DNA of 64,000 bases from Polynucleobacter sp. MWH-Spelu-300-X4 (GTDB lineage: Bacteria; Pseudomonadota; Gammaproteobacteria; Burkholderiales; Burkholderiaceae). The DNA lies in NCBI RefSeq assembly GCF_018687515.1, contig NZ_CP061294.1, forward strand, positions 1,240,001 through 1,304,000, written 5' to 3'. Positions within the stretch are counted from its first letter, which is position 1. Every line of letters begins with the position of its first letter. Made by a program: the position numbers and the translations under genes. Positions 44,120-60,108 of the stretch are shown one piece after another. The notes under the pieces are model-generated. The model ran no database searches. It saw only the letters and a list, made by a program, of their open reading frames with translations, and was not told where the DNA came from.

Positions 44120-44133
44120 TGGCGGAAGCTGTG
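44120..44133. repeat. attL: duplicated 3' end of tRNA-Ser
   Basis: TGGCGGAAGCTGTG is a perfect 14-bp copy of the last 14 bases of tRNA-Ser(UGA) (on the minus strand CACAGCTTCCGCCA, including CCA). It lies at the far end of the island, 215 bases before the integrase gene. Confidence 0.85.
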
Positions 44134-44152
44134 GCTTAACCTAGCTCCGTAC

Positions 44153-44265
44153 GGATTTAGAGAAAATTAGATCAATCAAAACTGAAGTAGACGATGCAAA
44201 TCCATGCATCTATTGAGAAATTATTCATCACTTAAGTGATGAATTCAAACTAGATCTCTAAATCC
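44153..44265. repeat. Nested inverted repeats at the island's left end
   Basis: An outer perfect 11-bp inverted repeat GGATTTAGAGA / TCTCTAAATCC (44153-44163 with 44255-44265) encloses GATGCA / TGCATC (44193-44198 with 44205-44210) and a 20-bp palindrome at 44224-44243. The stretch holds no gene. It may be a regulatory, recombination or replication site. Confidence 0.6.
44224..44243. promoter_or_regulatory. Palindromic operator, copy 1 (integrase side)
   Basis: Perfect 20-bp palindrome TTCATCACTTAAGTGATGAA, 104 bases upstream of the integrase ATG. A second palindrome differing only at two symmetric positions lies upstream of alpA at 46388-46407, which marks both as binding sites for one dimeric regulator. 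Confidence 0.7.
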
Positions 44266-44310
44266 CTATATTCGATCCCAGGCTGGTCTATGTTGTTATA
44301 AGCGCAACAT

Positions 44311-44331
44311 TTGGTAACCATCCTTGGTAAC
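44311..44331 (+). repeat. Paired TTGGTAAC repeats, left end
   Basis: Two TTGGTAAC copies (44311-44318 and 44324-44331) with 13-bp periodicity, just before the integrase gene. The same pair, in the same orientation, is found at 50164-50184 and 60032-60051. They look like integrase arm-type or excisionase sites. Confidence 0.65.
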
Positions 44332-44347
44332 AATCAATGGAGGATAC

Positions 44348-45535
44348 ATGAGCACAAACCTAAGTTTTAAATATGTGGAAAATCTTAAAAGCCAGGGGCG
44401 GTACACCGACGCCTTAGTTACAGGTTTACATCTATGGGTTAAACCCAATCTTAAAAAATACTGGATATTCCGATACTCTCAGGGCGGGAAACAACAAAAT
44501 GTTAGCCTTGGGCCTTACACCAAGGTATCTATTGCCGAAGCACGGCTTAAAGCTCAAGAACTAAGGAACCAAATTAATTCTGGCATCAACCCTATAGCTG
44601 AGCGCCAAAAACAAAAATCCCAAACAATAGAACTGCAGACCAAAAAATCTGTATTCAAAGATTTTGCTGAAGAGTGCATAAAAACAAAACGCGCTGAATG
44701 GACAAACCAGAAGCACGGTGACCAGTGGGAATACACACTTAAAGAGTTTGCCTACCCAGTTATCGGCAACAAATATTTGGACGAGATCAGTACAGAAGAT
44801 ATCTTGGCCATCCTTTCGCCAATATGGGTCAGCAAAACAGAAACTGCATCCAGGCTGAGAGGTAGGCTCGAGTGGATTTTGGCATCGGCAACAACAAGAC
44901 AGCTACGAACTGGGACCAACCCTGCACTATGGCGCGGTCATTTACAAACTATCTTGCCAGCGCCGAATAAATTAAAGAAAGTAAACCACCACAAAGCACT
45001 GCTATACAGACAAGTCCCATCTCTGATCTCTAACCTTGCTGAGATGGCAACCGTTGGGTCTCTTGCACTTGAGTTCACAATTTTGAATGCATCAAGAACT
45101 GGTGAGGTGGTTGGTGGACTGCGTTCTGAAGTGCATGGTGATATTTGGATAATCCCCGCAAACAGAATGAAAGCCAAGAAAGAGCACCGCGTACCGCTAT
45201 CTGCAAGATCATTAGCAATACTAGCAATTGCTAGAGCTATGGACGAAGATAGCGAATACCTATTTTCAAATAACGGGAAATGCTTATCAAATATGGCTAT
45301 GCCAATGGCACTGCGCCGCGCTGGGGTTGACGCAACGGTTCACGGATTTAGATCATCCTTTCGGGACTGGGTCTCCGAAGAAACAAATCACCCCTCAGAA
45401 GTTGCCGAAATGGCACTGGCACACACAATTAGTAATAAAGTTGAGGCAGCGTATCGACGAAGAGATTTACTTGAAAAACGCAGGCTACTAATGAATGATT
45501 GGCAGAATTATTGCTTAAGTGGAGAGCACTCATGA
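44348..45535 (+). CDS. int: Tyrosine recombinase (P4-type integrase)
   Basis: A 395-residue site-specific recombinase. The N-terminal DUF4102 arm-binding domain is visible (LHLWVKPNLKKYWIFRYS, SLGPYTKVSIAEARLKAQELR). The catalytic domain shows Arg in ASRTGE, HGFRSSFRDW (H-x-x-R), LAHTIS and the nucleophile region EAAYRRRDLLEKRR. The ATG at 44348 follows GGAGG; a TTG 24 bases upstream is rejected. It presumably recombines the 14-bp tRNA-Ser core. Its stop overlaps the next gene by 4 bases. Confidence 0.93.
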   Translation: MSTNLSFKYVENLKSQGRYTDALVTGLHLWVKPNLKKYWIFRYSQGGKQQNVSLGPYTKVSIAEARLKAQELRNQINSGINPIAERQKQKSQTIELQTKKSVFKDFAEECIKTKRAEWTNQKHGDQWEYTLKEFAYPVIGNKYLDEISTEDILAILSPIWVSKTETASRLRGRLEWILASATTRQLRTGTNPALWRGHLQTILPAPNKLKKVNHHKALLYRQVPSLISNLAEMATVGSLALEFTILNASRTGEVVGGLRSEVHGDIWIIPANRMKAKKEHRVPLSARSLAILAIARAMDEDSEYLFSNNGKCLSNMAMPMALRRAGVDATVHGFRSSFRDWVSEETNHPSEVAEMALAHTISNKVEAAYRRRDLLEKRRLLMNDWQNYCLSGEHS

Positions 45536-46386
45536 ACTCAATTACCGATAAATACAATGTTCAGCAAAAAATCATTAAACAAGAGCTTCTTGAAATGATT
45601 CAGAATCTTCTCAAAAAAGATCTAGACAAAGAGTCACGCCAAACTCTTGAAGAAATGCGCAAGGCAGTTAAGACTAATAAATTTGAAGGCTTGAATCAAA
45701 AGATTTATGAACAATACAATGCCCAGGGCTGGAATATCCCTCCAAACAGTGGGCGCCAAAACTTCAGTCATATTTTTATTGAAAAAGTAATGGATTTAGT
45801 CAGCATTCAGCATAAATACCAGACAGATCCAGACAGCCCACAGCAAAAATATTCCTCCGAAGAAAATCTTAAGGTAAAAATTAAAGAACTTTTGGATGAG
45901 TTTGAACAGCAGGAAAAAAGTATGTTAATAGCAAGGCTTGCTCAAGCAACTATTCTTCTTGAATTACTTAGCAACGAAGTCGATCATTTAAAGTTTGAGA
46001 ATAAGTTTTTACGCTTTAACTATGTTGACAATCTTCTTAAGAAGCGGAAGACCGTGAAAAGTCAAACCGCGGGTAAAGTCAAAAAATTCTCAACTAACAA
46101 CAAGTGTCTCGAGGAGTGCTTGAATGAAATCCTGAGTGCTGGTGCGGTAGATAAGATAATCTCAAAAAAGATTTACGCGCGGTTCTGCAACTTAGTAAAA
46201 AAGAAATACCCAACGCCGCCATATGTACAAAAGCCTAGATTAAGCAGAGAAGAAAAGCGCCAAGACCCAGCAATTCAAGCAGTAGACAGAGAAGCACTCA
46301 AGAGAAATGAATGGGCTCCAACAACATTGCGCACCTTCTTTGAGAAAGCCTTAAAAATCAGGATTACTGATCTTCCTAATAAATAA
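45532..46386 (+). CDS. Unknown protein coupled to the integrase
   Basis: A 284-residue protein not recognised. Its ATG overlaps the integrase stop (ATGA) and GGAGAG stands upstream, so it is translationally coupled. It is Lys/Glu-rich and mostly helical by composition, with likely coiled-coil stretches (about 20-55 and 115-170, e.g. EENLKVKIKELLDEFEQQEK). The basic middle (KKRKTVKSQTAGKVKK, about 178-193) could bind nucleic acid. The coupling suggests a role in recombination or in control of the element, but nothing shows it directly. Confidence 0.7.
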   Translation: MNSITDKYNVQQKIIKQELLEMIQNLLKKDLDKESRQTLEEMRKAVKTNKFEGLNQKIYEQYNAQGWNIPPNSGRQNFSHIFIEKVMDLVSIQHKYQTDPDSPQQKYSSEENLKVKIKELLDEFEQQEKSMLIARLAQATILLELLSNEVDHLKFENKFLRFNYVDNLLKKRKTVKSQTAGKVKKFSTNNKCLEECLNEILSAGAVDKIISKKIYARFCNLVKKKYPTPPYVQKPRLSREEKRQDPAIQAVDREALKRNEWAPTTLRTFFEKALKIRITDLPNK

Positions 46387-46387
46387 T

Positions 46388-46407
46388 TTCAACACTTAAG
46401 TGTTGAA
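46388..46407. promoter_or_regulatory. Palindromic operator, copy 2 (alpA side)
   Basis: Perfect 20-bp palindrome TTCAACACTTAAGTGTTGAA, 89 bases upstream of alpA. It matches the 44224-44243 palindrome at 18 of 20 positions, and the two differences are symmetric, so dyad symmetry is kept in both. Confidence 0.7.
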
Positions 46408-46435
46408 CTATAGATGCTCACCTAAGAGAGAACAA

Positions 46436-46475
46436 TTCAATTAAGCCCAATCAAACTTGGTTGGATTTAATTGAA
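46436..46475 (+). promoter_or_regulatory. Long hairpin in the alpA leader
   Basis: TTCAATTAA / TTAATTGAA arms (46436-46444 with 46467-46475) continue inward as CCAATC / GGTTGG around a short loop. CTTTCTTTT follows on the plus strand. It could be a weak terminator closing the integrase transcript or a leader structure controlling alpA. Confidence 0.45.
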
Positions 46476-46496
46476 CTTTCTTTTAGGAGCACTTGA

Positions 46497-46697
46497 ATGC
46501 AAAACTATGTACAGCTATTACGCATAGCTGAAGTATCAAAAAAAACAACACTTGCCAAAAGTACAATTTGGCTGAAGATCGCCAAACAAGAGTTTGTAGC
46601 TCCTGTACGAATTGGTGGTATTTGTGTATGGAAAGAGTCAGATGTCGATGACTGGATTGAGCGCCAGTTTGCTAAATCTCACAAGGAGGCAGCATGA
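46497..46697 (+). CDS. AlpA family DNA-binding regulator / excisionase
   Basis: A 66-residue helix-turn-helix protein: LLRIAEVSKKTTLAKSTIWLKIAKQEFVAPVRIGG then VWKESDVDDWIERQ, the AlpA/MerR-like pattern of prophage and island regulators that promote integrase expression or excision. AGGAGC precedes the ATG. Its stop overlaps the start of the next gene. It is a candidate ligand of the paired palindromes, though AlpA-type proteins usually bind direct repeats. Confidence 0.85.
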   Translation: MQNYVQLLRIAEVSKKTTLAKSTIWLKIAKQEFVAPVRIGGICVWKESDVDDWIERQFAKSHKEAA

Positions 46698-47317
46698 GCG
46701 ACCAAACTTTAAACCAACCTCAAGAGACTTCGCTTGTTGATAAACCCGAGTCAACTGCAGCCACAGAAAGCACGTCTTCACTTCTAAGTAGCCTAAGATT
46801 ACCTGACACCTACAGCGCCAGCGGTGGGACTGTATTACCGCTCAAAGCAACCTACGGGAAACTCAATAAATACCGGTTTTCCAGAGTTCATCCTGGAGAT
46901 GATTATAAATTTCCCTGCCTTACTGTTGAGGACAAAGATAGTGGTGAGACATACCTAGCATCCCCTAATATGGCAGGCCAGCTAGGCAGCCTAGCTACAG
47001 TAAAAACAATCCGCTTGGCTGTTGACAACGCAGGCACCCCTAAGTTAATTGGAGAGCCTGATTTGGACCCAAATGGAAGAAGAAATCTTTGGCACTCCTC
47101 ATTAAAGAATGCGATCAAGTTGGCTGAAGATGAATGGGTCAGGGTGCAAGCAAACATGTCTGCTGGACAATATGAAATAACCACTTCAGCAAACGACTTG
47201 GGCTTCCCAAGATGGCCAAAGCAGTCCATGGAGGAATTGATCAACGATGCATTTGCTGGCCGAATCATCGACTCGCCTGATCACCCATATATTCGCCAAA
47301 TTCAAGGGAGGATCTAA
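46694..47317 (+). CDS. Unknown protein upstream of the element polymerase
   Basis: A 207-residue protein not recognised. A polar Ser/Thr-rich start (about 1-40) is followed by a compact region (FSRVHPGDDYKFPCLTVEDK, ASPNMAGQLGSLATVKTIRLAV). The middle reads like a beta-rich fold, so a single-strand-binding or polymerase accessory role is possible but unproven. It overlaps alpA by 4 bases and the polymerase gene by one base, so all three are translated as one unit. Confidence 0.7.
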   Translation: MSDQTLNQPQETSLVDKPESTAATESTSSLLSSLRLPDTYSASGGTVLPLKATYGKLNKYRFSRVHPGDDYKFPCLTVEDKDSGETYLASPNMAGQLGSLATVKTIRLAVDNAGTPKLIGEPDLDPNGRRNLWHSSLKNAIKLAEDEWVRVQANMSAGQYEITTSANDLGFPRWPKQSMEELINDAFAGRIIDSPDHPYIRQIQGRI

Positions 47318-49080
47318 TGGTTAATCAAGATTTTTCCTTGCGTGACTGCATCACCCTCGACTTTGAATTCCGCCCCCTAGAGGGGCGTGAGGGTAACTTG
47401 CCAGAAGTGATATGTATGGTTGCTTATGAAATTGGTACCGGCAAATCTCATCGCATCTTCCAGGAGGAGCTCTATCAATTAAAGGCACCACCTTTCCCAA
47501 TTGATAAGACAGCCGTCATTGTTGCCTACTTTGCCAGCGCTGAAATGTCTTGCTTCAAGGCTTTGGGCTGGCCAATGCCCCAAAACGTTCTAGATCTCTA
47601 CGCTGAGTTTCGCAATAGGACAAATGGGTTTTCATATTTACCAGGTGGCCGTTCGCTGCTTGGAGCTATGAAATTTTTTGGTCTAGATTCAATTGTCCCT
47701 GAGCACAAAGAGGAGATGCGCACCTTAGCTTTAAGAGGCGGGCCATACAACTATCATGAACGGTCATCGTTGTTGGATTATTGCCAGTCAGATGTAGATG
47801 CATTACTACCTCTTTTAAGTGCCATGCTACCGGGGATTGACCAGCCACGCGCGCTGCTCAGAGGGCAATACAACATCGCTGTTGCCGCTATGGAAAACAC
47901 TGGCACACCCATTGATATTCAGACTTATGCCGATCTGTGCCATTTCTGGGACAAGATTAAAGGCGAGCTTATTTTAGAAGTCGATGCAGCTTATGGGGTC
48001 TACCAGGATGGCGTATTTAAAAGCGATTTATTTGAGAAGTATCTTGGGCTAGCTAATATCCCATGGCCCAGAACAGCAACGGGAAAACTTAAGTTAGACG
48101 AAGACACCTTCAAGGACATGTCCAAGGCATACCCCAATCTGTTGCCATTGCACAATTTGCGAGACTGCTTAGCAAAGCTTAGATTGAGTGACCTGTATGT
48201 CGGCAGTGATGGGCGTAACCGCTGCCTGTTATCACAATTTTCATCGATCACAGGGCGCAACCAACCTTCGACAACTAAGTTTGTTTTTGGGCTGTCAAAG
48301 TGGCTAAGAGGTCTAATCCAGCCTCGTCCTGGGATGGCTATTGCATACATTGACTGGTCACAACAGGAATTTGGTATTGCAGCTGCATTATCCCAAGACA
48401 AAAATATGCTTGAAGCTTATTTATCCGGTGACCCATATCTTGCTTTCGCGAAGCAAGCTGCTGCAGTTCCGCAAACCGCAACTAAACATAGTCACCCAAA
48501 TGAGCGAAATCAGTACAAGCAGTGCGTCCTGGCAACTCAATATGGCATGGGAGCAGAGTCTTTGGCGGACCGATTAGGTACACCAGTGTTACGAGCCAAA
48601 CAGCTCCTTGATATGCACAAGAAAGTTTATAGGACGTTTTGGGACTGGTCAGACAATCTTTACAACACGACCGTTGCATTCAATCAGGTAGCTACTTTGT
48701 TTGGCTGGAGACTGAATGTTCAACCAGATCTAAACCCACGTAGTTTGCGCAACTTTCCAATGCAAGCCAATGCAGCAGAAATGCTAAGACTTGCATGCAT
48801 ATTGATGCACGAGAGAGGTATCAATATTTGTGCGCCTGTACACGATGCTTTATTGATTGAGGCTCCTGAATACCAAATTGATGATGCAGTTTTAGTAGCC
48901 CAGGATTGCATGGAAGAAGCCAGTGCGATTCTGCTTGATGGATTCAAACTAGCCAGTGACGCAAAAATAATCCGCAGCCCTGAGCGGTTCCATGAGGACG
49001 CTGGTCAGATTTTCTGGGACCGCGTCATGACTATTCTTGAGCGCATCAAAAGCAGTGAAAAACTTAACGCAGGGTGTTAG
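47317..49080 (+). CDS. Family A DNA polymerase with 3'-5' exonuclease domain
   Basis: A 587-residue polymerase carried by the island. The exonuclease domain has D15 and E17 (LDFEF) and the ExoIII motif Y155-x3-D159. Polymerase motif A is D346-WSQQE351, motif B R397-x3-K401-x7-Y409-G410, and motif C V508-H509-D510. There is no 5'-3' exonuclease domain. Residues 308-340 (SSITGRNQPSTT) fit the family A thumb-palm region. All catalytic residues needed look intact, unlike degraded cargo. It could copy the element or repair junctions after excision. No primase or helicase gene accompanies it. Confidence 0.9.
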   Translation: MVNQDFSLRDCITLDFEFRPLEGREGNLPEVICMVAYEIGTGKSHRIFQEELYQLKAPPFPIDKTAVIVAYFASAEMSCFKALGWPMPQNVLDLYAEFRNRTNGFSYLPGGRSLLGAMKFFGLDSIVPEHKEEMRTLALRGGPYNYHERSSLLDYCQSDVDALLPLLSAMLPGIDQPRALLRGQYNIAVAAMENTGTPIDIQTYADLCHFWDKIKGELILEVDAAYGVYQDGVFKSDLFEKYLGLANIPWPRTATGKLKLDEDTFKDMSKAYPNLLPLHNLRDCLAKLRLSDLYVGSDGRNRCLLSQFSSITGRNQPSTTKFVFGLSKWLRGLIQPRPGMAIAYIDWSQQEFGIAAALSQDKNMLEAYLSGDPYLAFAKQAAAVPQTATKHSHPNERNQYKQCVLATQYGMGAESLADRLGTPVLRAKQLLDMHKKVYRTFWDWSDNLYNTTVAFNQVATLFGWRLNVQPDLNPRSLRNFPMQANAAEMLRLACILMHERGINICAPVHDALLIEAPEYQIDDAVLVAQDCMEEASAILLDGFKLASDAKIIRSPERFHEDAGQIFWDRVMTILERIKSSEKLNAGC

Positions 49081-49131
49081 AACATTTAACACCTGTCCAA
49101 TCTTATATATATCTACTCATAAAGAAATCAT

Positions 49132-49506
49132 ATGACTACAAACCTACAGCCTAAGAAGTTTTCTCTTTTAGACATCGACCTTGATAAAGAGCTTGGTAGA
49201 TGCGAACCTTATACACCCCCACCTAAACCTGCAAGACAGCCTGGTTTATTCATCAAAGGGCCAATCTCAATTGACTGGCTCAAGAAAGCAAACCATCTCG
49301 GTGGCGCTACTGGTATTGTTGCTACTACGCTATGGCTTTATGTTGGCCTTCAAGGTTCTAAAACTGTAAAGCTGGATTCCAAAATTGATGCCATAACTGG
49401 TCTCACTCGGCAAACTCGGCAACTCATCTTGAGGAGACTAGAGATACACGGGTTAATTAAACTTTTCCCACAACGCGGTGGATACCCACGGGTGACCATA
49501 CTATGA
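49132..49506 (+). CDS. Small protein with a likely winged helix
   Basis: A 124-residue protein. The C-terminal half (TGLTRQTRQLILRRLEIHGL, about 91-110, then IKLFPQRGGYPRVTIL) looks like a winged helix-turn-helix with a recognition helix and a beta wing. Such small proteins next to replication genes can be initiators or repressors. No family is assigned. A ribosome binding site is weak (AAAGAAA). It follows the polymerase by 51 bases. Confidence 0.65.
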   Translation: MTTNLQPKKFSLLDIDLDKELGRCEPYTPPPKPARQPGLFIKGPISIDWLKKANHLGGATGIVATTLWLYVGLQGSKTVKLDSKIDAITGLTRQTRQLILRRLEIHGLIKLFPQRGGYPRVTIL

Positions 49507-49601
49507 GTGTTTGCATAGGTATTGAGGAAATTAAATTTAAGCGCCTTAAAGACCCCCTAAATAAGGTGTGGAGACCTGTCAAATGCCTTTGCCTAGTGTG
49601 A
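49503..49601 (+). CDS. Possible 32-residue peptide
   Basis: An ATG overlapping the winged-helix gene stop (ATGA) opens a 32-codon frame (MSVCIGIEEIKFKRLKDPLN...). It ends inside the start of the next gene. The coupling is suggestive, but no family is known and chance is possible. Confidence 0.35.
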   Translation: MSVCIGIEEIKFKRLKDPLNKVWRPVKCLCLV

Positions 49602-49969
49602 GGATGCATGGCGCCAAGTTGTGTGGCTGCAAATCGAAAAGAACTAGACTACCCTGCAATAACCCAGCAGCATTCGGAACTAGGGCATGTAGGATGCATG
49701 GCGCCCACAAAAGCAGAAATGTTCTACAAGGCGCCAACCATCCGCAGTATAGAAATGCTGGTCAAACCAGGCGAGAAAGGCATGAACGTAGTGAGAAAAG
49801 CCTGCAGTTTGCCTTGCTAGAGCAGCTCGGCTGGTACCTGAATATGTTTACTGGCACGAAGACGCGAGGCCGAAAACCCTCAGGGTATAGAGCTATGAAC
49901 TTAAGTGACCCAGATGAATTAAGTGAAATTGTTTTAAAGACCTTACCCAAAGCAAAGTCAAAAATTTGA
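49583..49969 (+). CDS. Cys-rich HGA-motif mobile-element protein
   Basis: A 128-residue basic protein. The N-terminus has a compact Cys/His pattern, GAKLCGCKSKRTRLPCNNPAA then ACRMHGAHKS (about 9-44), similar to the small 'HGG' proteins often found in phages and integrative elements, which may bind zinc. Function is unknown. The ATG at 49583 follows GGAG at good spacing; a GTG at 49568 is an alternative. It is the last gene of the left unit of the island. Confidence 0.65.
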   Translation: MPLPSVRMHGAKLCGCKSKRTRLPCNNPAAFGTRACRMHGAHKSRNVLQGANHPQYRNAGQTRRERHERSEKSLQFALLEQLGWYLNMFTGTKTRGRKPSGYRAMNLSDPDELSEIVLKTLPKAKSKI

Positions 49970-50432
49970 CATTGTTTTTAAAAATTACTCATCGCCTGTG
50001 CAGAATAGTGTGCATAGTGGAAATGAGGGACCCATTTTTAAAATTGGGGGGTGCCGGGTGGGTGGGGTCAGCATTCCCAGAAAATAGAAGCCCTACCCCC
50101 TCATGTTTCCGAAATAAACCAGCACCTAAATAACTAAGGCATGTTGCGCGCAGGTGATTGAATTTGGTAACAAACTTTGGTAACGCGGCGGTTTTAGCCC
50201 TGGAACCATTAATAAACAGCCATGTACGGCGGACGCTATCTCCGCGATAACCGCTGTCGACCCAAAGCGGACCTTGGCGGAACATATCCTCTGCCATTCA
50301 ATATCGAGCCGTTTCTAAGCTAACTCAAGCATCGATTTGAATATAGTCATCCGCTTTAAGGGCCAGGAATCCCATGCTTTAGAGTCATAATTAAGCTTTG
50401 GCGCTATAAAAATCCAATAAATCAAGGAATAG
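49970..50432. other. Gene-free stretch joining the two halves of the island
   Basis: 463 bases without a supported gene. They include a G-rich run (about 50044-50067), the third TTGGTAAC pair (50164-50184) and a 10-bp match to the att core, CTTGGCGGAA (50273-50282). The latter also lies in a sequence resembling a widespread non-coding repeat whose shadow translation reads PLWVDSG. Confidence 0.6.
50164..50184 (+). repeat. Paired TTGGTAAC repeats, middle
   Basis: TTGGTAAC at 50164-50171 and 50177-50184, 13-bp period, same orientation as the left and right pairs. It lies between the replication and metal-resistance halves, where an internal end of a composite island would be expected. Confidence 0.65.
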
Positions 50433-52610
50433 ATGATGAGTGATTGCAGTAATAATGGATGTGGCTGTTCGGCAACGCCAACTACAAATCAACCCTCCCC
50501 TTCTATTGACCACAATAGAGTTCAATACCGCATTGAAAATATGGACTGCCCTACCGAGGAAGCGCTCATTCGCAACAAACTTGGCGCTCTTGAGGGTGTA
50601 ACAGGGTTGCAATTCAACCTAATGCAGCGAACGCTAACTGTAAACCACAACCTCAATAGCCTTGCTCCAATAGAGGCGGTCTTAAAAAGCATAGGCATGC
50701 AAGCAACGCAAATCAAGCCAACTGATACGTCAGCAGAAAAACCAGCACCCAAGACTAAATGGTGGCCACTAGCAGTATCGGGTGTAACAGCGATATTAGC
50801 TGAAGGGGTTTACTGGATTCAAATTGGTAATCACTGGGCCGTAATAGGTCTATCTATTGCTGCAATTTTGCTAGGCGGTCTGCCAACATACAAAAAAGGT
50901 TGGATTGCACTGAAAAATGGCAATCTCAACATGAATGCGCTCATGTCGATTGCTGTTACTGGTGCGATGTTTATTGGTCATTGGCCAGAAGCTGCAATGG
51001 TGATGTTCCTCTTTGCGGTAGCCGAGTTGATTGAGGCTAAATCACTAGATCGGGCACGCAACGCCATTCGCGGGCTAATGGATTTGGCACCTGATACAGC
51101 GACTGTGCGACAGCAAGATGGCAGTTGGGTAGATGCATCCGCTAATACTGTGCCACTTGGTGCTATCGTGCGCCTACGCCCCGGTCAGCGTATTGCACTT
51201 GATGGCGTAGTCACTAGCGGCCACTCATCAGTAAATCAAGCCCCTATTACTGGAGAGAGTTTACCAATTGAAAAAGCTGAGGGTGATCTGGTTTTTGCTG
51301 GCACGATCAATGAGACTGGATCATTTGAATACCGCGTAACCGCAGAAGCTAGCAACTCCACTTTAGCTCGCATCATTCATACTGTTGAGTCAGCGCAAGG
51401 TAGCCGTGCACCAACGCAGCGTTTTGTTGACCAATTTGCCAAGATTTACACGCCAACCGTTTTTGTCATCGCCCTTCTGGCGGCCTGCATTCCACCATTG
51501 GCTTTTGGCTATCCATGGTTCGACTCAGTCTATAAAGCTTTGGTGCTCCTGGTTATTGCTTGCCCCTGTGCGCTAGTGATCTCAACTCCTGTCACTATCG
51601 TGAGCGCTCTTGCTGCGGCAGCTCGTAAAGGAATTTTGATTAAAGGCGGTGTTTATCTTGAAAAAGGTCGCAAGCTAGCAGTCATAGCAATGGATAAGAC
51701 AGGAACGATTACACACGGCAAACCCGCACAAACAGACTTCATTGATTTAAGTGGTGATGGGTCAGGCGTAAGAATCCTTGCTGCAAGCCTCGCTGCTCGC
51801 TCTGACCATCCAGTCTCACTGGCCATTGCCCGTGCCGCTACTGAGGCAGGCTTAACACTTCGCGAAGTTACTGAATTTTCGGCAATACCCGGTCGTGGGG
51901 TACGTGCCAACATCGACGGACATACCTATCAATTGGGAAACCATCGACTAATTGAAGAGTTGAAGCTGTGCTCATTAGAGCTTGAGGCAAAACTGAACAT
52001 TTTGGAACGCCAAGGCAAAACGGTAGTGTTGCTGGCTAACCAAACTGGAGTGATTGCTATCTGCGCCGTAGCAGATACTGTGCGAGAAACAAGCAGGCAA
52101 GCTATCGCCGAACTGCATACACTTGGCATCAAGACACTCATGCTCACTGGTGACAATATCCATACCGCCCAAGCGATTGCACGGGAAGTTGGGATCGACG
52201 AAGCAAAAGGCAACCTTCTCCCAGAAGACAAGCTTAAGATAATTGAGGGTCTCATAAAAGGCGCAAATGGCAATAAGGTAGGCATGGTTGGAGATGGAAT
52301 TAACGATGCACCAGCTTTAGCTCGCTCTGATATTGGCTTTGCTATGGGGGCTGCTGGTACTGATACAGCCATTGAAACGGCAGATGTCGCATTAATGGAT
52401 GACGATTTACGAAAAATTCCTGCCTTTGTTCGCCTGTCCCGCGCCACCGCGAATGTGCTCATCCAAAACATCGTTCTTGCGCTTGGAATCAAGGCTGTGT
52501 TTTTAATTCTCACATTTACAGGGCAGGCAACGATGTGGATGGCTGTATTTGCCGATATGGGAGCAAGCCTATTGGTGGTATTTAATGGGTTAAGGCTATT
52601 GCGTCATTGA
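50433..52610 (+). CDS. cadA: Cd2+/Zn2+/Pb2+-type P1B ATPase
   Basis: A 725-residue inner-membrane pump expelling divalent heavy metals at the cost of ATP. The Cys-rich start (C5, C10, C12) is followed by one HMA domain with NMDCPTEE (C39), as in CadA/ZntA. Transport motif CPC is at 377-379, phosphorylation site D421 in DKTGT, SDHP near 466 and GDGINDAPAL near 613. The start is an ATGATG pair. No MerR-type regulator gene is next to it. Exact metal preference cannot be read from the sequence. Confidence 0.92.
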   Translation: MMSDCSNNGCGCSATPTTNQPSPSIDHNRVQYRIENMDCPTEEALIRNKLGALEGVTGLQFNLMQRTLTVNHNLNSLAPIEAVLKSIGMQATQIKPTDTSAEKPAPKTKWWPLAVSGVTAILAEGVYWIQIGNHWAVIGLSIAAILLGGLPTYKKGWIALKNGNLNMNALMSIAVTGAMFIGHWPEAAMVMFLFAVAELIEAKSLDRARNAIRGLMDLAPDTATVRQQDGSWVDASANTVPLGAIVRLRPGQRIALDGVVTSGHSSVNQAPITGESLPIEKAEGDLVFAGTINETGSFEYRVTAEASNSTLARIIHTVESAQGSRAPTQRFVDQFAKIYTPTVFVIALLAACIPPLAFGYPWFDSVYKALVLLVIACPCALVISTPVTIVSALAAAARKGILIKGGVYLEKGRKLAVIAMDKTGTITHGKPAQTDFIDLSGDGSGVRILAASLAARSDHPVSLAIARAATEAGLTLREVTEFSAIPGRGVRANIDGHTYQLGNHRLIEELKLCSLELEAKLNILERQGKTVVLLANQTGVIAICAVADTVRETSRQAIAELHTLGIKTLMLTGDNIHTAQAIAREVGIDEAKGNLLPEDKLKIIEGLIKGANGNKVGMVGDGINDAPALARSDIGFAMGAAGTDTAIETADVALMDDDLRKIPAFVRLSRATANVLIQNIVLALGIKAVFLILTFTGQATMWMAVFADMGASLLVVFNGLRLLRH

Positions 52611-52694
52611 CATCTTGTTCTATAAGAGTAGGATGAATTTGCATACATCTACATTTGTAGTGGCACTACCCTTTTCTGGGGTTTTTCATCTAGG

Positions 52695-52871: not shown

Positions 52872-52910
52872 GGGCGCTGAAGTTGCTGCTGGACAAAAAT
52901 GCAACTGTTC

Positions 52911-53279: not shown

Positions 53280-53295
53280 TTTTTATCTCCTTTAA

Positions 53296-56200
53296 TTAAA
53301 AAGCTTCGTTTGATTTAATACTACCCAATACTTTTTCGGATGCTTTTCTGCCATAAAGCCAAAAAATTGCTGGAGTTAAAAATGTATCAAGCAATGTAGA
53401 GCTAATAAGGCCTGAAAAAATAACGACCGCCACTGGGTGAAGAATTTCCGTGCCAGGTCGCTCTGCTTCAAATAACAAAGGCGCTAAAGCAAAAGCCGTC
53501 ACTAAAGCCGTCATTAAGACTGGGCTTAGACGCTCGATAGAACCCCGAATAATCATTGATAAGTCAAATACCTCTCCCTCCGATTGCATCAAATTGAGGT
53601 AATGACTGATCTTCAGAATTCCATTGCGTACCGATATTCCCGCCAGAGTAATAAAGCCTATTAATGCTGCAATTGAAAGTGGCTGCCCCGAGATCCATAA
53701 CCCAATAACAGCGCCCACCATGGCTAGCGGGATATTGAGCATGATCATTAAAGATAGTTGCGCCGATCGATAGCGGCTATTTAAAACAACAAATATCAAT
53801 AGTAGTGAGCCCACAGAGAGCAGGCCAATTAATTTAGAGGCCTCTTCTTGCGCCTTAAATTGACCATCTAAGGTAATAAAGTAGCCCTCTGGCAAACTTT
53901 GGTTTGCGATCACACCTCTAATATCAGCAACTACATCAGATAGAGCCCGTTTAGAGGTGTTAGCCGATAAGACAATTCTTCTTTTGCCGCCGTCTCTACT
54001 AATTTGATTTGGTCCATCACCATCTTCAATCGTTGCAATTTTTGAAAGTGGGATTTTTCCATTCGGAGTATCAATCAAAATATCTGCGAGGCCCTCTAAA
54101 TTTCTTGCAGACTCTGGCAGCTTGATCACTAAAGCGAAGCGTCGATTACCTTCAATAATCTGTGAAATCCGCTCCCCTTCAACCATGCCTTGCAAGGAGG
54201 ACATTACCTGAGAAGCAGAGATTCCATATTGCGCAGTCCGATCATAATCAATGCGAACTTTGATCTGCGGAGCCAGCACTTGCTTTTCAATCTCTAAATC
54301 AACCAGGCCTTCAATCCCTGCTAGTTTTGATCTTAATAAGTCTGCCTGACTTCGCAGCTGATCTAAATCATCACCGAAAATCTTGATTGCGATTTTGGAT
54401 CTAACGCCTGAGAGCATATGGTCGATACGATGAGAAATGGGCTGCCCAATCGCAATAGCAGCGGGTAAATTGACCAGTCTTGACCGAATATCAGCTTGGA
54501 TTTCAGCCATTGAACGATCTAGTTCGCCTGCCGGTTTAATGCCAACATCAAGCTCACTGACATGCACTCCTTCGGCGTGCTCATCTAGCTCTGCCCTACC
54601 GCTTCTTCGCCCAACATAGGTCACCTCGGGAACTTGTCTGACAAGCTTTTCGGCTTGACTCGCTACGCTAGCAGACTCAGAAAGAGAAACACCAGGATTT
54701 AGTCGAAGGCCGATGAGTAATGTTCCCTCATTAAATGGCGGTAAAAATGAACTCGCCATAAAAGGAATGCTCGCGCCAGCCAATAAGACTGATGCAAATG
54801 CATACATCAAAGGTTTTTTTGGGGCCGCCAATAATCTAGATAACTGAACCTTGTAATGACTTTTTAACCAAGTAACGATTTTTGTATCGTGATCCCTAAG
54901 TGACTTCATTGACGGCAATAAATAGAAGCAAAGTACTGGGGTGATCGTGACTGACACTAAAAGCGATGCCAAGGTGGAGACAATAAATGCAATACCCAAA
55001 GGAACAAATAGGCGACCCTCAATACCCGGCAACGCAAATAATGGGATAAACACTAAAACAATAATTGCAGTTGCATAGATGATTCCTGTCCTCACCTCTA
55101 ATGAGGCTGCTCGCACAATTGCTAGCGGGGATAATTGATTGACCTTATCCCTATCAAGATTTTCTCGCAGACGCCGAATCACGTTTTCTACGTCCACTAC
55201 AGCATCATCTACTAAGCCTCCAATCGCAATGGCTAAACCTCCCAATGTCATCGTGTTGATCGATAGGCCAAAATATTTAAAAACTAAGGCTGTCAATAAA
55301 ATCGAAACGGGAATTGCAGTTAAAGAGATGATGACTGGGCGTATCGTTCCTAAAAACAAATACAGCACTACCGCTACAAAGATTGAGGCACCGATGAGCT
55401 TACCTTCCAAGGTACTAATGGACGCATCGATAAAACTCGCCTGTCTAAATGTCACTTTTGGGGTATTCATGCCTACTGGAAGGCCTTGTTTTAACTCAGA
55501 TATTGCAGCCTCAATTTTCTTGGTTAATTCCACCGTATCTGCTGAGGGTTGCTTTTGAACACCCAGTATTACCGCTGGACCACCCTCATAACCAGCATCT
55601 CCTCGTCTTACGGCTGGTGCAAATGTGACATCGGCGACTTGCTTTAAGAGTATTGGCTGGCCATTACGACTTGAAACAGCAATATTTTTCAAATCCTCCA
55701 AACTAGAAGTGCGCCCTATATGACGAATCAAGTACTCGCGATTATTCGATTCAAGAAAGCCGCCAGATGTATTGGCTGAATACCCCTTTAATGCATCTTC
55801 TAGTTGCAATATGCTCAGACCTAGTTCAGCCATGCGACGAGTATTGGGCTGCACTTGAAACTGCCTTACCTGACCGCCAATCGGAATCACTTGGGCAACA
55901 CCTGGAATAGCCATCAGTCTTGGGCGAAGTACCCAATCGGCATATTCGCGCACTTGCATAGATGAAATCTTTGACTCATCAATTGGAATGGCAATCTGCA
56001 TAATTTCACCCATGATCGAGCTAATGGGGCCCATGCGAGAAACTATGCCATCTGGAATAGCACCTTCCATAGATGACAACCTCTCCGATACCATCTGCCT
56101 AGCGCGGTAAATATCAACGGACCAATCAAATGTGACGTAAATAAATGAAAGGCCTGCGCTAGATACCGAACGAATTGCCTCAACACCTGGCAAACCATTC

Positions 56201-56418
56201 ATAGCGGTTTCTAATGGGAAAGTGATGAGCTGCTCAACCTCTTCAGAGGCCATACCACCAGCCTCAGTCATGATGGTGACAGTAGGTTTATTTAAATCAG
56301 GAAATACATCAACAGGCATTTTGCTTAAGGTAAAGAGCCCATAGCCCATAGCAATCAGGCTAAGCAAAATCACTATCAGTCGATTCTTCAAACTAAAGTC
56401 TAGTAACCAAGTAAACAT
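53296..56418 (-). CDS. Heavy-metal efflux RND permease (CzcA/CusA family)
   Basis: A 1040-residue inner-membrane proton-driven pump. It has the RND layout: N-terminal helix (LIVILLSLIAMGYGLF), two large periplasmic domains, and helix sets near 340-540 and 870-1030. The TM4 signature is AIGGLVDDAVVDVEN (398-412), lacking the DFG of CzcA/CnrA and closer to the A-x-G pattern of CusA. The transported metal is therefore uncertain. It forms a tripartite pump with the adaptor and outer-membrane factor encoded upstream. Confidence 0.92.
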   Translation of the reverse strand: MFTWLLDFSLKNRLIVILLSLIAMGYGLFTLSKMPVDVFPDLNKPTVTIMTEAGGMASEEVEQLITFPLETAMNGLPGVEAIRSVSSAGLSFIYVTFDWSVDIYRARQMVSERLSSMEGAIPDGIVSRMGPISSIMGEIMQIAIPIDESKISSMQVREYADWVLRPRLMAIPGVAQVIPIGGQVRQFQVQPNTRRMAELGLSILQLEDALKGYSANTSGGFLESNNREYLIRHIGRTSSLEDLKNIAVSSRNGQPILLKQVADVTFAPAVRRGDAGYEGGPAVILGVQKQPSADTVELTKKIEAAISELKQGLPVGMNTPKVTFRQASFIDASISTLEGKLIGASIFVAVVLYLFLGTIRPVIISLTAIPVSILLTALVFKYFGLSINTMTLGGLAIAIGGLVDDAVVDVENVIRRLRENLDRDKVNQLSPLAIVRAASLEVRTGIIYATAIIVLVFIPLFALPGIEGRLFVPLGIAFIVSTLASLLVSVTITPVLCFYLLPSMKSLRDHDTKIVTWLKSHYKVQLSRLLAAPKKPLMYAFASVLLAGASIPFMASSFLPPFNEGTLLIGLRLNPGVSLSESASVASQAEKLVRQVPEVTYVGRRSGRAELDEHAEGVHVSELDVGIKPAGELDRSMAEIQADIRSRLVNLPAAIAIGQPISHRIDHMLSGVRSKIAIKIFGDDLDQLRSQADLLRSKLAGIEGLVDLEIEKQVLAPQIKVRIDYDRTAQYGISASQVMSSLQGMVEGERISQIIEGNRRFALVIKLPESARNLEGLADILIDTPNGKIPLSKIATIEDGDGPNQISRDGGKRRIVLSANTSKRALSDVVADIRGVIANQSLPEGYFITLDGQFKAQEEASKLIGLLSVGSLLLIFVVLNSRYRSAQLSLMIMLNIPLAMVGAVIGLWISGQPLSIAALIGFITLAGISVRNGILKISHYLNLMQSEGEVFDLSMIIRGSIERLSPVLMTALVTAFALAPLLFEAERPGTEILHPVAVVIFSGLISSTLLDTFLTPAIFWLYGRKASEKVLGSIKSNEAF

Positions 56419-56427
56419 ATACTGTCC

Positions 56428-57462
56428 TTAGCGAATCTGGTTGATGAGAGACGACCCATCAGTAACCACTCGGTCACCATCTTTAATACCACTCGTAATG
56501 ACAATACTTTGACCGTCTAAGGGCTCATAAACCACCACCCTAGGCTCAAAGGTTTCAGGATTTCTTTTAACCCATACGATGGTTTGGTTTGAGCCGCTCT
56601 TAACAAGCGATTTTGTAGGGACTTTGTTACCTAAGACCTTGGTATTGGTATTCACAAACACTCTTATAGGCTGACCTATAGGGAGATATTGCAAATCATC
56701 AGCTTTAGCAGAGAATGTGAGTGGTAAAGCCTGTTCGCGTAGAGTCTGGCCGCCACCAAGATAAGAAAGCTCAATCACCTTGCCATTGACTTCAACTTTG
56801 CCGTCAGCAATGTTTTTCGCCAAGTTTGGATCATAGGCAAGTGCCTCAATTAAAAGCTTAGAAGGATTTACTACTTCGAAAATCAGATCTCTCTCTTGCA
56901 CCACCTGGCCGGAAACAATGCCTGTAGTAGAAATAATTCCAGTAACTGGAGCTCTTAATTCTTCATTAGCGACCGCAGCCTCTGCCTCTTCAATTGTTTT
57001 GCGAGGAACTGTATCGCTCAGTTCGCGCAATCGCTTTAGCCGACTCTCTGCAAGTGACCGTGATTTTCCGGGACCGGCTTCAGGGGTTACATAAGCGAGA
57101 ACGTCGCCCTTATTGACCTTTTGCCCCGGCAAGGGAAAGCCGTTGGGCCCAGGGGTAATTCGACCTGCAACGATGGCCTGAACTTTGCCTCCAAAGTTAG
57201 GATCCATGATGACCTTACCTGCTAAGTCATAGGTTTTGGCATATTCACCTGGTTGACCAGGGGCAGTCATGACATGCAACTGTCTTTGGGCAGGTTTTGG
57301 AACAAACAGATTCCCATCGGCTTGTCTTTTGGGAGCATCTCCCTGCACCTGTACTGATGAATCATCATGTCCTGGACCAGCATAGACTTTGAAGGTAAAT
57401 AACGCAGCTGATAAACCCATGAGAAATGCGAACAATCTGAGATCTTTTAAATTGCGATTCAT
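56428..57462 (-). CDS. RND efflux periplasmic adaptor (CzcB-like)
   Basis: A 344-residue membrane-fusion protein. Signal peptide ends VYA, mature start GPGHDD. A split biotinyl-lipoyl domain (GRITPGPNGFPLPGQKVNKGDVLAYVTP, about 102-129; then ELRAPVTGIISTTGIVSGQVV, about 171-191) flanks a short hairpin, followed by beta-barrel and membrane-proximal domains. It links permease and outer-membrane factor. Start overlaps the preceding gene by 4 bases. Confidence 0.9.
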   Translation of the reverse strand: MNRNLKDLRLFAFLMGLSAALFTFKVYAGPGHDDSSVQVQGDAPKRQADGNLFVPKPAQRQLHVMTAPGQPGEYAKTYDLAGKVIMDPNFGGKVQAIVAGRITPGPNGFPLPGQKVNKGDVLAYVTPEAGPGKSRSLAESRLKRLRELSDTVPRKTIEEAEAAVANEELRAPVTGIISTTGIVSGQVVQERDLIFEVVNPSKLLIEALAYDPNLAKNIADGKVEVNGKVIELSYLGGGQTLREQALPLTFSAKADDLQYLPIGQPIRVFVNTNTKVLGNKVPTKSLVKSGSNQTIVWVKRNPETFEPRVVVYEPLDGQSIVITSGIKDGDRVVTDGSSLINQIR

Positions 57463-58037
57463 ACCCGCTCCTTAATTTGATTGATGATTCTTATGGCACG
57501 ACTTCTTAGTAAGCCCCTATTGCGATAAGACCAATAAGCAACTCCGGCAACAAAGCACATCAATACCAATAGCTTTAACCATGTTTTCCAATTCATTACC
57601 GAAGAATTTTCAAACTGACTTAAATCAATCGTGGAAACTAAAACATCAAGCTCCCCGCCATCATTGATGGTGATGCTTATGGGGGTTGGCTGATCTTTGA
57701 TTTTGTTTTTTAACTCGATCAAATACTCTCCATCACCATGCGGCTTTGCAGCTACTTTTGCCCCATCAACTTCAATATCAATGCTGGCACCTTTTACAGC
57801 CTCATTAGTTGCATAGCGATCTAGATAAAGTGTTATTTGCCCGTCTCGAATCACCCCGACGAGCTCATAAAGATCAGACTCAGCGTAAAAACGCGGTGAT
57901 GTTTGGGCTTGCTGCTGATTAGGCTTTTCGTCACCATGGTCATGCCCGGGCCCCGCATAAGATGAAGGCGAGATTGCTAAAGTTAGAGCAGCTATTAGCT
58001 GCACCAAGTAGTGGATATAGTTTTTAAATAATTTCAT
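57459..58037 (-). CDS. Membrane-anchored periplasmic protein of the efflux operon
   Basis: A 192-residue protein with signal peptide ending SYA and mature start GPGHDHGDE. A beta-rich periplasmic domain (LYELVGVIRDGQITLYLDRYAT) is followed by one C-terminal transmembrane helix (WLKLLVLMCFVAGVAYWSYR, about 154-173) and a basic tail. It resembles adaptor N-terminal extensions and may hand metal to the pump. The ATG at 58037 is preferred over a TTG at 58070 that would overlap the outer-membrane factor gene. Confidence 0.7.
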   Translation of the reverse strand: MKLFKNYIHYLVQLIAALTLAISPSSYAGPGHDHGDEKPNQQQAQTSPRFYAESDLYELVGVIRDGQITLYLDRYATNEAVKGASIDIEVDGAKVAAKPHGDGEYLIELKNKIKDQPTPISITINDGGELDVLVSTIDLSQFENSSVMNWKTWLKLLVLMCFVAGVAYWSYRNRGLLRSRAIRIINQIKERV

Positions 58038-58050
58038 AGGATCAATTTGC

Positions 58051-59334
58051 TTATTCAGGTAACAGGCCAAGCGCCTGGCGTAGATTTGAGACGGCTACTG
58101 CGTAATTAATTTTTGCAACTGCCGCTTGTCGATTGGCGTCTACTGCTTCAATCTCAATACGCAATCTTGTGGGCAGGTCTGTTTCTCCGAAGCGGAACGA
58201 TTTTTCAAAAAATTGCCGGGTTTCATTGGCTAAGGTCGATCTTTTATCGGCAGCGCTAAGTTTCAATTGGGCTGATTTGACCAATGCCATATTTGATTCC
58301 ACATTACTTAAGGCAGACTCGCGCTCATAAGCTAAGCGCGCCTCGGAATCCACCATCTCGGCCGTAGCACTCGCCAATCTATTGGTATTTCGGGCGTCCG
58401 AACCAAATGGAATTCTCAAACCAATCGCAACGGATTGCTGATACGGAACTCCGTAAACTTCACGACCCTTAGTAGTCCATATTTGCAACTCAGGAGAAGC
58501 CCTCGTTTGAGACTTTGCCAAATCAAGCGCCTTTCTGGCCACCTCCAACTGATCCACAAGCGCTGCAACAATTGGCAAGCTGGAATCTAGGGCTGATAAA
58601 TTTTCAGGAACCTTAGGCACTGGCTCAATATTTTTAGCGGCGTCACCAAATTGAATTTTCTTTAGATTCTCACTACCTAATAGAGAACGCACTCTTTGCT
58701 CGGCATTAATTACATTGGCTTGCGCTTCAACAAAATAGGCTTCTGAGGATGCGAGTGCTCCATTAGCCAGGTGCAGATCAGCGCGGGATAAGTCGCCAGC
58801 CTTAAACCTTTTTTCAACATCCATAGCCAAAGTCTTTGCGTTCTCAAATCGACGTAGTGCCAAGTCAGACTCAATCTTTGATCTTTGGTAATTCCAATAG
58901 GTATCTCTTACTTCAGCCGCAATCTTTAATTGGGCAAGATAGTATTGGGACAAAAGCTTTTTATACTCAGCATCGGCTAAATTAATTGAGCTTGACCGTT
59001 CATTCCATAGCCAAAGTGGAATACCCAGACCGAGGATAGTCTCGCTAGCACCCTGGTTGCTATTTGTTCTATCTGTTTTTTGGGAGACCTCTACCGATGC
59101 AGGACTCACCAAAAGACTGCTAGCAATTTTTTGCTTAGCAAGCGCTGCCTCTACCTTGTATTGATAGGATCTGTAGTCAGGCTGGCGCTCCCATGATGAC
59201 TCATAGAAAGACTTTAAGGCCGATTCACCTTTGCGCTCTCCATTGGCTAGCGCTATTGGTGAGCCCAATAGGAAGATTAATCCTGTAAGTTGAATGACAC
59301 AGCGACAAACTGCGTCTGAATACTCTCGCGACAT
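58051..59334 (-). CDS. Outer-membrane efflux protein (CzcC/TolC family)
   Basis: A 427-residue outer-membrane factor with signal peptide ending ALA. Long helical repeats typical of the family are seen (e.g. SALKSFYESSWERQPDYRSYQYKVEAALAKQKIA, and SNMALVKSAQLKLSAADKRS). It supplies the exit duct of the tripartite metal pump. It lies between the CzcI-like gene and the membrane-anchored gene. Confidence 0.9.
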   Translation of the reverse strand: MSREYSDAVCRCVIQLTGLIFLLGSPIALANGERKGESALKSFYESSWERQPDYRSYQYKVEAALAKQKIASSLLVSPASVEVSQKTDRTNSNQGASETILGLGIPLWLWNERSSSINLADAEYKKLLSQYYLAQLKIAAEVRDTYWNYQRSKIESDLALRRFENAKTLAMDVEKRFKAGDLSRADLHLANGALASSEAYFVEAQANVINAEQRVRSLLGSENLKKIQFGDAAKNIEPVPKVPENLSALDSSLPIVAALVDQLEVARKALDLAKSQTRASPELQIWTTKGREVYGVPYQQSVAIGLRIPFGSDARNTNRLASATAEMVDSEARLAYERESALSNVESNMALVKSAQLKLSAADKRSTLANETRQFFEKSFRFGETDLPTRLRIEIEAVDANRQAAVAKINYAVAVSNLRQALGLLPE

Positions 59335-60033: not shown

Positions 60034-60051
60034 GGTAACGATTTTGGTAAC
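60032..60051 (+). repeat. Paired TTGGTAAC repeats, right end
   Basis: TTGGTAAC at 60032-60039 and 60044-60051, 12-bp period, just inside the right att core. Same orientation as the other two pairs. Confidence 0.65.
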
Positions 60052-60094: not shown

Positions 60095-60108
60095 TGGCGG
60101 AAGCTGTG
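60095..60108. repeat. attR: 3' end of tRNA-Ser
   Basis: TGGCGGAAGCTGTG, identical to 44120-44133 and forming the 3' end of the intact tRNA-Ser gene. Confidence 0.85.

Follow-up and report, generated by a model that had tools for sequence, protein, structure and literature searches.

A compact integrative element with its own family A DNA polymerase at a tRNA-Ser gene, probably of the phage-satellite type

Results

A compact unit with its own polymerase in a tRNA-Ser island

We analysed a 64 kb stretch of DNA from a Polynucleobacter genome (the window) in which a tRNA-Ser gene holds a 16 kb island, and found that the left part of this island is a compact integrative unit of ~6.1 kb (44120-50240). 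The genes of the unit run in the order int, an int-overlapping gene, alpA, u4, a family A DNA polymerase gene, wh and a gene for a Cys-rich HGA protein. From its layout, which resembles that of PICMI and PICI elements, we infer that the unit is probably a phage-satellite-type element in which the polymerase (PolA), a probable single-strand DNA-binding protein (SSB) and wh replace the usual primase and helicase; this reading is supported by the small terminases that some relatives carry immediately after wh. A preliminary description had proposed a compact integrative element with its own family A polymerase, possibly a class of its own among integrative elements or phage satellites. The element itself is borne out, with the correction that it forms the left module of a composite-looking island, and a distinct class is supported, its satellite half being a reading of the sequence. 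Core-type and arm-type sites show at the sequence level that the element is integrated at the 3' end of tRNA-Ser:

44120..44133, plus strand: attL core (TGGCGGAAGCTGTG), which copies the tRNA-Ser 3' end; 14-bp exact repeat with 60095
44313..44331, plus strand: left arm-type repeat GGTAAC-N7-GGTAAC, 193 bp from the core
50166..50184, plus strand: internal arm-type repeat, right arm of the compact unit, with counterparts in L040, L043 and G107
50227..50240, plus strand: internal att-like site (CGGCGGACGCTATC), 10/14 core matches, separated from the arm pair by 61 bp
50433..52610, plus strand: cargo, heavy-metal P-type ATPase
53296..59334, minus strand: cargo, RND efflux pump with membrane-fusion and outer-membrane genes, and a 203-aa ORF
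60034..60051, plus strand: right arm-type repeat GGTAAC-N6-GGTAAC, 61 bp from the tRNA core
60095..60108, plus strand: attR core, at the 3' end of tRNA-Ser(TGA)
60095-60184, minus strand: tRNA-Ser(TGA)

The tRNA-Ser site is empty in three relatives (L129, L133 and L134). The whole window contains three GGTAAC arm-type pairs, and because these lie at 44313, 50166 and 60034 they suggest that the island is a composite of the compact unit and metal-efflux cargo, which the unit would have accreted in this genome. The G107 island has the same layout with different cargo, and its arm-to-core spacings of 193 bp (left) and 61 bp (right) equal those of the window. Matches of at least 10/14 to the core occur at 10 of 16186 island positions, and support for the internal att-like site is weaker because the corresponding positions in L040, L043 and G107 score only 9, 8 and 7 of 14. 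A first candidate for this site, at 50275 (TGGCGGAA, also 10/14), was dropped since the site at 50227 has the 61 bp arm spacing of the real attR. We observed no att repeat inside the available sequence of loci L044, L045, L120, L046, L067, L052, L080 and L053, and one candidate, with 4 mismatches, in L048.

Integrase, int-overlapping gene and AlpA regulator

The first three genes and the palindromes upstream of int and alpA are as follows:

44223..44244, strandless: 22-bp perfect palindrome (ATTCATCACTTAAGTGATGAAT), candidate operator upstream of int
44348..45535, plus strand: tyrosine integrase, int (Pfam PF13356, PF22022, PF00589)
45532..46386, plus strand: u2, the int-overlapping gene, in the position of the PICMI iolg, with an ATGA overlap at 45532
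46388..46407, strandless: 20-bp perfect palindrome (TTCAACACTTAAGTGTTGAA), candidate operator upstream of alpA, sharing CACTTAAGTG
46497..46697, plus strand: AlpA-type regulator or excisionase (PF05930, E 5e-9)

The start of int was set at an ATG preceded by GGAGG. Overlap of int by 4 nt recurs in 9 of the 34 loci with an upstream int, the window counted. The u2 protein has no above-cut-off family match and only weak PHROG matches. L039 carries a near-copy of the alpA-upstream palindrome, likewise upstream of alpA.

A conserved triad of u4, polymerase and wh

The centre of the unit consists of three genes:

46694..47317, plus strand: u4, conserved protein, probable OB-fold single-strand DNA-binding protein
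47317..49080, plus strand: family A DNA polymerase, 587 aa, with 3'-5' exonuclease and polymerase domains (PF00476)
49132..49506, plus strand: wh, winged-helix protein

The polymerase has an intact Klenow-type fold without a 5'-3' exonuclease domain. Its key polymerase and exonuclease catalytic residues are kept across 85 family members, consistent with the intact, proofreading enzyme initially described, and L405, which aligns by motif with E. coli F762, is Leu in all 85. Relative to L040, its nearest relative, the polymerase is under purifying selection; in this single comparison dN/dS was 0.029/0.514 for pol, 0.026/0.493 for the HGA gene and 0.081/0.460 for wh.

The gene order, for which a search in other genomes had been proposed, is not unique to the window: u4, pol and wh are contiguous in 55 of the 77 loci that have room on both sides, and wh adjoins pol in 68/84. 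Triad loci come from proteobacteria, Planctomycetes, Neobacillus and others (taxa as labelled in the records). HTH matches in part of the family agree with the earlier view of wh as a winged-helix protein. In the structural check suggested for u4, Foldseek returned no PDB match at E 1e-3, and two BFVD entries fell below that value (a Rho termination factor N-terminal entry and one unnamed).

Phage records matching the polymerase number 953, the best-ranked having 29% identity over 74% of the query; no match to a known prophage module was seen. Matching plasmid records number 35; none covers more than 80% of the query and all are below 60% identity. A search of IMG/VR with the single polymerase gave no match, and a search with an alignment of the window polymerase and 16 of 120 listed proteins (A1) gave 6 loci.

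A box and inverted-repeat array after pol

Two elements lie at the end of pol:

49075..49091, plus strand: 17-nt inverted repeat TGTTA-GAACATT-TAACA, one unit of what in relatives is an array
49092..49106, plus strand: box CCTGTCCAATCTTAT, with CCCGTACATTCTTAT as the consensus in the family; candidate for an origin or for a control site of wh

Of 85 loci, 51 have the box close to where pol ends, and 9 other matches occur on both strands of 1.15 Mb. It is single-copy between pol and wh and is often preceded by inverted-repeat units, which in tandem arrays are mostly 22-23 bp apart with AT-rich DNA alongside. From these features we propose the box and array as a candidate origin. In a stem-pairing test anchored on the box alone (72 of 86 loci, box score at least 14), stem pairs 3-5 formed in 110/216 cases in register, against 35-88/216 at shifts of -3 to +2 and 52/144 at +3; this result is suggestive rather than decisive, because loci with 16-nt units fall in another register. 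Hairpin and dimer-site readings both fit the array, since wobble pairs occur. It is also conceivable, at somewhat less than even chances, that array and box are a control region of the wh operon (operators and promoter) or a structured leader RNA, either of which would be compatible with the satellite reading. The position of the box just upstream of wh, with its end overlapping or abutting the first ATG of the wh frame in L052, favours such a role, but the 22-23 bp tandem spacing and the AT-rich flank fit iterons, though operators could be so arranged.

The exact box pattern occurs in 11 IMG/VR contigs, including L152; nine of these were judged to be chance matches in one common stretch resembling coding sequence, as was the match in L153, which lies inside a coding frame. 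The exact consensus is absent from 200 genomes of the family, a background count only, because the window's own genome, with its variant box, also scores zero. LTPVQSYIS, considered as a C-terminal protein motif of some polymerases, was rejected: it arises from translation of the box in one frame, and in other loci the box lies outside the ORF.

The HGA protein and the small-terminase slot

Two frames follow wh:

49503..49601, plus strand: 32-residue frame overlapping the wh stop (uncertain)
49583..49969, plus strand: HGA Cys/His-rich protein in the small-terminase slot (phrog_3678, E 2.7e-5)

The possible 32-residue peptide of the preliminary description stays uncertain, its frame being kept in L040 and missing in five other relatives examined. 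The window's HGA protein is tied to small terminases (TerS) by slot and family, with above-cut-off small terminases only in six relatives. One member of the HGA family, L050, is NCBIfam HGG_STG. A homolog of the L050 protein in phage phiT1 is annotated TerS and adjoins TerL, and two staphylococcal phages encode homologs some ORFs ahead of their HNH, TerL and portal genes. Terminase_4 scores above cut-off directly after wh in the six relatives (L044-L048 and L120). Over residues 16-142 the L048 protein shares 42% identity (E 2e-28) with the product of the first gene of phage P19250A; that gene is annotated as a hypothetical protein and precedes the large terminase and portal genes. Of 86 loci, 11 carry HGA, and of the 135 neighbours scanned, 6 match Terminase_4.

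Gene content of the island and its relatives

As initially reported for the unit, no primase, helicase, relaxase or capsid gene was found in the scans made of it and its relatives. A DUF3987/DUF5906 primase was absent from the eight window proteins (Pfam, up to E 1) and from the families listed for 109 upstream neighbours and six att-bounded relatives. The same eight proteins gave no Fis match; the flanking genes, which we take to be hemW and pgi, lay outside that scan. We found no portal, large terminase or full capsid set among the eight proteins of 44324-50297 (Pfam, PHROG), the seven cargo proteins (Pfam) or 46 ORFs of the bounded relatives, no structural or lysis genes among the eight unit-side and seven cargo proteins (cargo by Pfam only), and no relaxase or conjugation genes among the 15 island proteins scanned. 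The 46 ORFs, all those non-core and of at least 70 aa in the six bounded relatives, matched 22 Pfam families, which include restriction, methylase and SIR2 families and no primase, helicase, relaxase or capsid.

Discussion

We propose that phage infection would lead AlpA to switch on int and the int-overlapping gene, and that the compact unit would then excise. The wh protein could bind the array as an origin, u4 would coat single strands, and PolA would copy the circle, depending on host or helper for primers and unwinding; the HGA or TerS-like protein would direct the helper's large terminase to pack the unit. More tentatively, and with the odds slightly against it, such units may form a cross-phylum satellite class, a family A counterpart of pipolins, with an SSB-PolA-wHTH replicon and a hairpin-iteron origin, no primase or helicase of its own, and a TerS switch that is exchanged for one of an unrelated terminase family when the helper changes. 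Much of the cargo moving among bacteria travels on satellites and integrative islands, and those satellites that the compared literature describes, as far as the excerpts go, start replication with a primase. If a proofreading PolA is widespread together with a probable SSB and an exchangeable TerS, one has to ask what primes and unwinds a replicon of two or three proteins, and by which phages metal-resistance and defence cargo is moved in freshwater bacteria. Box, array and triad can serve as search keys for genomes and viromes.

Conservation across phyla of u4-pol-wh, and not of TerS (see the HGA and Terminase_4 counts above), would also suit a self-replicating integrative element based on PolA and SSB, a family A pipolin counterpart with accessory TerS-like genes, spread by natural transformation, vesicles, generalised transduction or mobilisation by a conjugative element. 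We consider this unlikely: TerS-type genes from at least two families turn up repeatedly behind wh, a pattern to be expected were packaging important, and no relaxase is among the families listed for neighbours and bounded relatives. The unit might instead be a defence or repair island whose triad acts on invading phage DNA and not in its own replication. Restriction and SIR2 families are cargo in bounded relatives, and the polymerase domain hits RTasPolA, the PADLOC model for DRT-associated PolA, at E 2e-28, but with a score equal to that of the general PF00476 match (97.5 vs 97.3 bits), and the families listed (25 of 56 in one neighbour set) include no reverse transcriptase near pol. The travel of the triad with integrases and att sites, and the cis-acting role suggested by a single-copy box beside pol, make the defence explanation improbable.

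Family A polymerases are common in phages, and the PolA3 group is described, in the excerpt compared, as prophage-encoded with close phage homologs (PMC12926913), as would fit a prophage in decay whose early replication genes survive and whose structural genes are gone. We regard decay as very improbable given the contiguous triad, the low dN/dS and the low identity of the best-ranked phage polymerase. Small terminases apart, moreover, structural genes are missing from the families listed for neighbours and from the six bounded relatives.

The phage-satellite reading can be set beside known systems. PICI/SaPI-type satellites have int, an AlpA-like regulator and, in some, a packaging-redirecting small terminase, and they use a primase or initiator; a packaging-redirecting gene such as TerS is carried by many satellite families. 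The unit shares int and the AlpA-like regulator with PICI/SaPI-type satellites, in which we know of no polymerase A. The family B polymerase of pipolins is primer-independent. As excerpted, pipolins resemble the unit as integrative elements with their own DNA polymerase in diverse phyla, but the unit has a Klenow-type family A enzyme and a TerS slot (PMC7385651). A literature search, with most subscription papers outside its reach, found no published description of elements like the unit.

In the portions of PMC10803314 compared, the PICMI model requires a primase (DUF3987/DUF5906) and a Fis gene, excision needs int, alpA and the int-overlapping gene, and int is overlapped by a gene in 21 of 35 subfamilies. 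Like PICMIs as described there, the unit is small, without capsid-remodelling genes, and has a tyrosine integrase overlapped by four bases via ATGA, an AlpA regulator and few other genes (PMC10803314). It differs in having PolA, a probable SSB, a wHTH protein and a TerS-slot protein instead of the primase, and in sitting at tRNA-Ser outside Vibrionaceae. The viral Leu762 PolA and PolA3 enzymes, in the excerpts compared, are likewise proofreading family A polymerases with Leu at the F762 position and no 5'-3' exonuclease domain, but are described in phages and prophages, often beside helicases (PMC6302109; PMC12926913). Finally, the unit recalls tycheposons and VEIMEs, which are named in the excerpts of PMC10803314 and PMC11389934 as aquatic-bacterial cargo islands proposed to be satellites.

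A probable composite island at tRNA-Ser

The genome is a single contig of 1.79 Mb (window, C1:1240001–1304000). We read the flanks of the tRNA-Ser island as hemW and pgi, and its ends carry the same 14-bp core:

44120, attL core, TGGCGGAAGCTGTG, exact 14-bp repeat of 60095
60095, attR core, TGGCGGAAGCTGTG, the 3' end of tRNA-Ser(TGA)

We surveyed the tRNA-Ser locus of 20 related genomes for empty sites. The examined stretch contained a hemW match at 11 of the 20 loci and none at the remaining nine; for six of those 11 we read the junction itself. At L129, L133, L134, L135 and L138, hemW or its terminator directly abuts tRNA-Ser without an island, and at L142 some 360 bp lie between the two.

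Paired GGTAAC copies with a 6–7-bp spacer (arm pairs) occur three times in the 64-kb window, at 44313, 50166 and 60034, with 193 bp between the left pair and its core and 61 bp between the right pair and its core. These spacings are identical in G107 (locus L166), a second genome of the genus with a tRNA-Ser island, where an internal arm pair ~6.1 kb from the left core is followed by metal cargo unlike that of the window. At 61 bp from the window's internal pair is an att-like sequence, CGGCGGACGCTATC, that agrees with the core at 10 of 14 positions; the corresponding sites, also 61 bp from the internal pair, agree at 9 (L040), 8 (L043) and 7 (G107) of 14. DNA identity between the window and L040 is 88% over 47096–50244 and 67.5% over the cargo at 53346–57015. 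We read 44120–50240 as the original unit and 50240–60108 as accreted cargo. The cargo encodes a P-type ATPase and an RND efflux system, and L044 carries related efflux cargo 3' of its unit. The cargo of G107 also has a fourth GGTAAC pair (14689 of the examined stretch); no hemW match was found in that island stretch at the E limit applied.

Genes of the unit

The unit encodes, in order, a tyrosine recombinase (int), u2, alpA, u4 (a probable OB-fold single-stranded DNA-binding protein, SSB), a family A DNA polymerase (pol), a winged-helix protein (wh), a possible 32-residue frame and a Cys/His-rich protein (HGA). u2 starts within an ATGA overlap with int and matched no family above any cut-off. 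For window and L040, the one pair tested, dN and dS were 0.029 and 0.514 in pol, 0.026 and 0.493 in HGA, and 0.081 and 0.460 in wh. Pol (47317–49080) matches PADLOC RTasPolA (reverse-transcriptase-associated PolA, DRT defence; E 2e-28), probably through general family A homology. Two perfect palindromes with a common CACTTAAGTG precede int (44223–44244) and alpA (46388–46407), and likely serve a single regulator, either wh or AlpA, as its operators; in L039 a near-copy precedes alpA.

The u4-pol-wh triad recurs in diverse bacteria

Eight of 151 genomes of the genus, including this one, have an element-type polymerase, broken in G107; other polymerase matches listed in the genus were about 26–33% identical, and most of their frames have the length of Pol I. 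A wider scan of one genome per species (84,980 species) yielded 124 relatives, of which 80 were kept. By record title, these come from beta-, gamma- and deltaproteobacteria, Planctomycetes, Verrucomicrobia, Nitrospina-type MAGs, Neobacillus and others, with misbinning of MAGs possible. Together with the window, genus loci and IMG/VR loci they made 94 loci, reduced to 86 by omitting seven duplicates and L107, in which no polymerase ORF was called.

The preliminary description suggested looking for the order int, unknown, alpA, unknown, polA-like at tRNA genes elsewhere. Among loci that extend far enough, u4 adjoins pol in 64 of 79, wh does so in 68 of 84, and both do in 55 of 77. Many relatives are bordered by tRNA or tmRNA genes. 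Of the 86 loci, 15 have alpA, 11 have HGA and 58 have an integrase-family ORF, upstream or downstream. Elements bounded by tRNA repeats measure ~6.6 (L116), ~8.7 (L117), ~9.3 (L111), ~10.3 (L095), ~11.4 (L108) and ~12.5 kb (L098); L101 has a 17-bp repeat. The L095 element, at a tRNA-SeC gene, encodes an ATP-grasp (R2K) protein and looks decayed, since its polymerase and integrase are each split over two frames. One similarity cluster comprises six antisense ORFs downstream of pol (L061, L083, L086, L094, L116 and L119); because no wh was called at those loci, it may represent wh or another shared stretch on the opposite strand.

Neighbouring genes and a predicted small terminase after wh

The unit had been described as having no recognizable primase, helicase, relaxase or capsid gene. 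In six att-bounded relatives, the 46 non-core ORFs that are 70 aa or longer matched 22 Pfam families, including restriction, methylase, SIR2 and HAD, with no primase, helicase, relaxase, portal or capsid among them. Nor did any of these appear among the 16 families listed for 109 upstream neighbours. The 135 downstream neighbours hit 56 Pfam and 83 PHROG families; the first 25 of each list included DnaC-like loader matches in single members, which may represent IstB of IS21, a protein found in the same listing. The host genome had no match to Phage_portal or TerL_ATPase, the two families tried.

The same downstream neighbours matched Terminase_4 (six proteins), phrog_3678 (eight), and the named small terminases phrog_83 (six) and phrog_57 (two). 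The Terminase_4 proteins are encoded directly 3' of wh, in L044–L048 and L120. The L048 protein shares 42% identity (E 2e-28) with the first gene product of Methylophilaceae phage P19250A, annotated as hypothetical and encoded upstream of that phage's large terminase and portal genes. In the window and nearer relatives this slot is filled by the HGA family, and in L038 by DUF5681. The HGA-family member of L050 exceeded the NCBIfam HGG_STG cut-off; those of the window, L041 and L066 had no match in the same scan. Distant phage homologs of the L050 protein (E 6e-4 to 4e-3, partial alignments) include an annotated small terminase (TerS) adjoining the large terminase (TerL) gene in Rossellomorea phage phiT1, and, in two staphylococcal phages, proteins encoded some small ORFs ahead of genes for HNH, TerL and portal proteins; in Thermus phage Cumys the homolog instead precedes a putative helicase. 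Based on the slot matches and these phage homologs, we conclude from homology that the slot holds a predicted small terminase in several relatives, and infer the same for HGA in the window. A distant (28%) homolog of the putative Polynucleobacter satellite TerS occurs at G016:C1:561575–561937 (L165), in a genome without an element-type polymerase, and perhaps belongs to a prophage or another satellite.

A recurrent box between pol and wh

In many relatives the pol-wh gap contains one to three 16–17-nt inverted repeats, ACC-[TGnnn...n'n'n'CA]-CC, mostly 22–23 bp apart, followed by a box, CCCGTACATTCTTAT, and then AT-rich DNA. The window has a single repeat:

49075–49091, inverted-repeat unit
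49092–49106, box

Where the box scored at least 14 (72 loci), stem pairs 1–5 in a fixed 17-nt register were complementary in 45, 41, 38, 34 and 38 loci. Of 85 loci, 51 have the box close to the end of pol; both strands of 1.15 Mb gave nine further matches. The box is within the pol frame in some loci and outside it in others, suggesting selection on nucleic acid. The array and box are a candidate origin, operator or leader RNA. A box with a partly similar array also occurs on a 21-kb IMG/VR contig (L152:8066–8082), ~180 bases from the end of the examined stretch. ORFs on this contig were read as large terminase and portal, and the record had no match to the polymerase profile; the box there may be a coincidence or an artefact of the contig, or it may be a shared signal for packaging or as an origin.

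Comparison with known systems

A literature search, limited to one paper library, found no description of such an element. PMC12926913 describes PolA3 as prophage-encoded, and that family may overlap the unit's polymerase family. The layout of int, int-overlapping gene and alpA resembles that of PICMI, for which PMC10803314 states that excision requires all three genes and that a primase aids replication. In the unit, the polymerase, probable SSB and winged-helix genes occupy the place of the PICMI primase. The unit falls outside the PICMI definition because no primase was found, and outside the pipolin definition because its polymerase is of family A, not B. We propose that the element is a phage satellite whose replicon is based on PolA, for which priming and unwinding would be supplied by the host or a helper.
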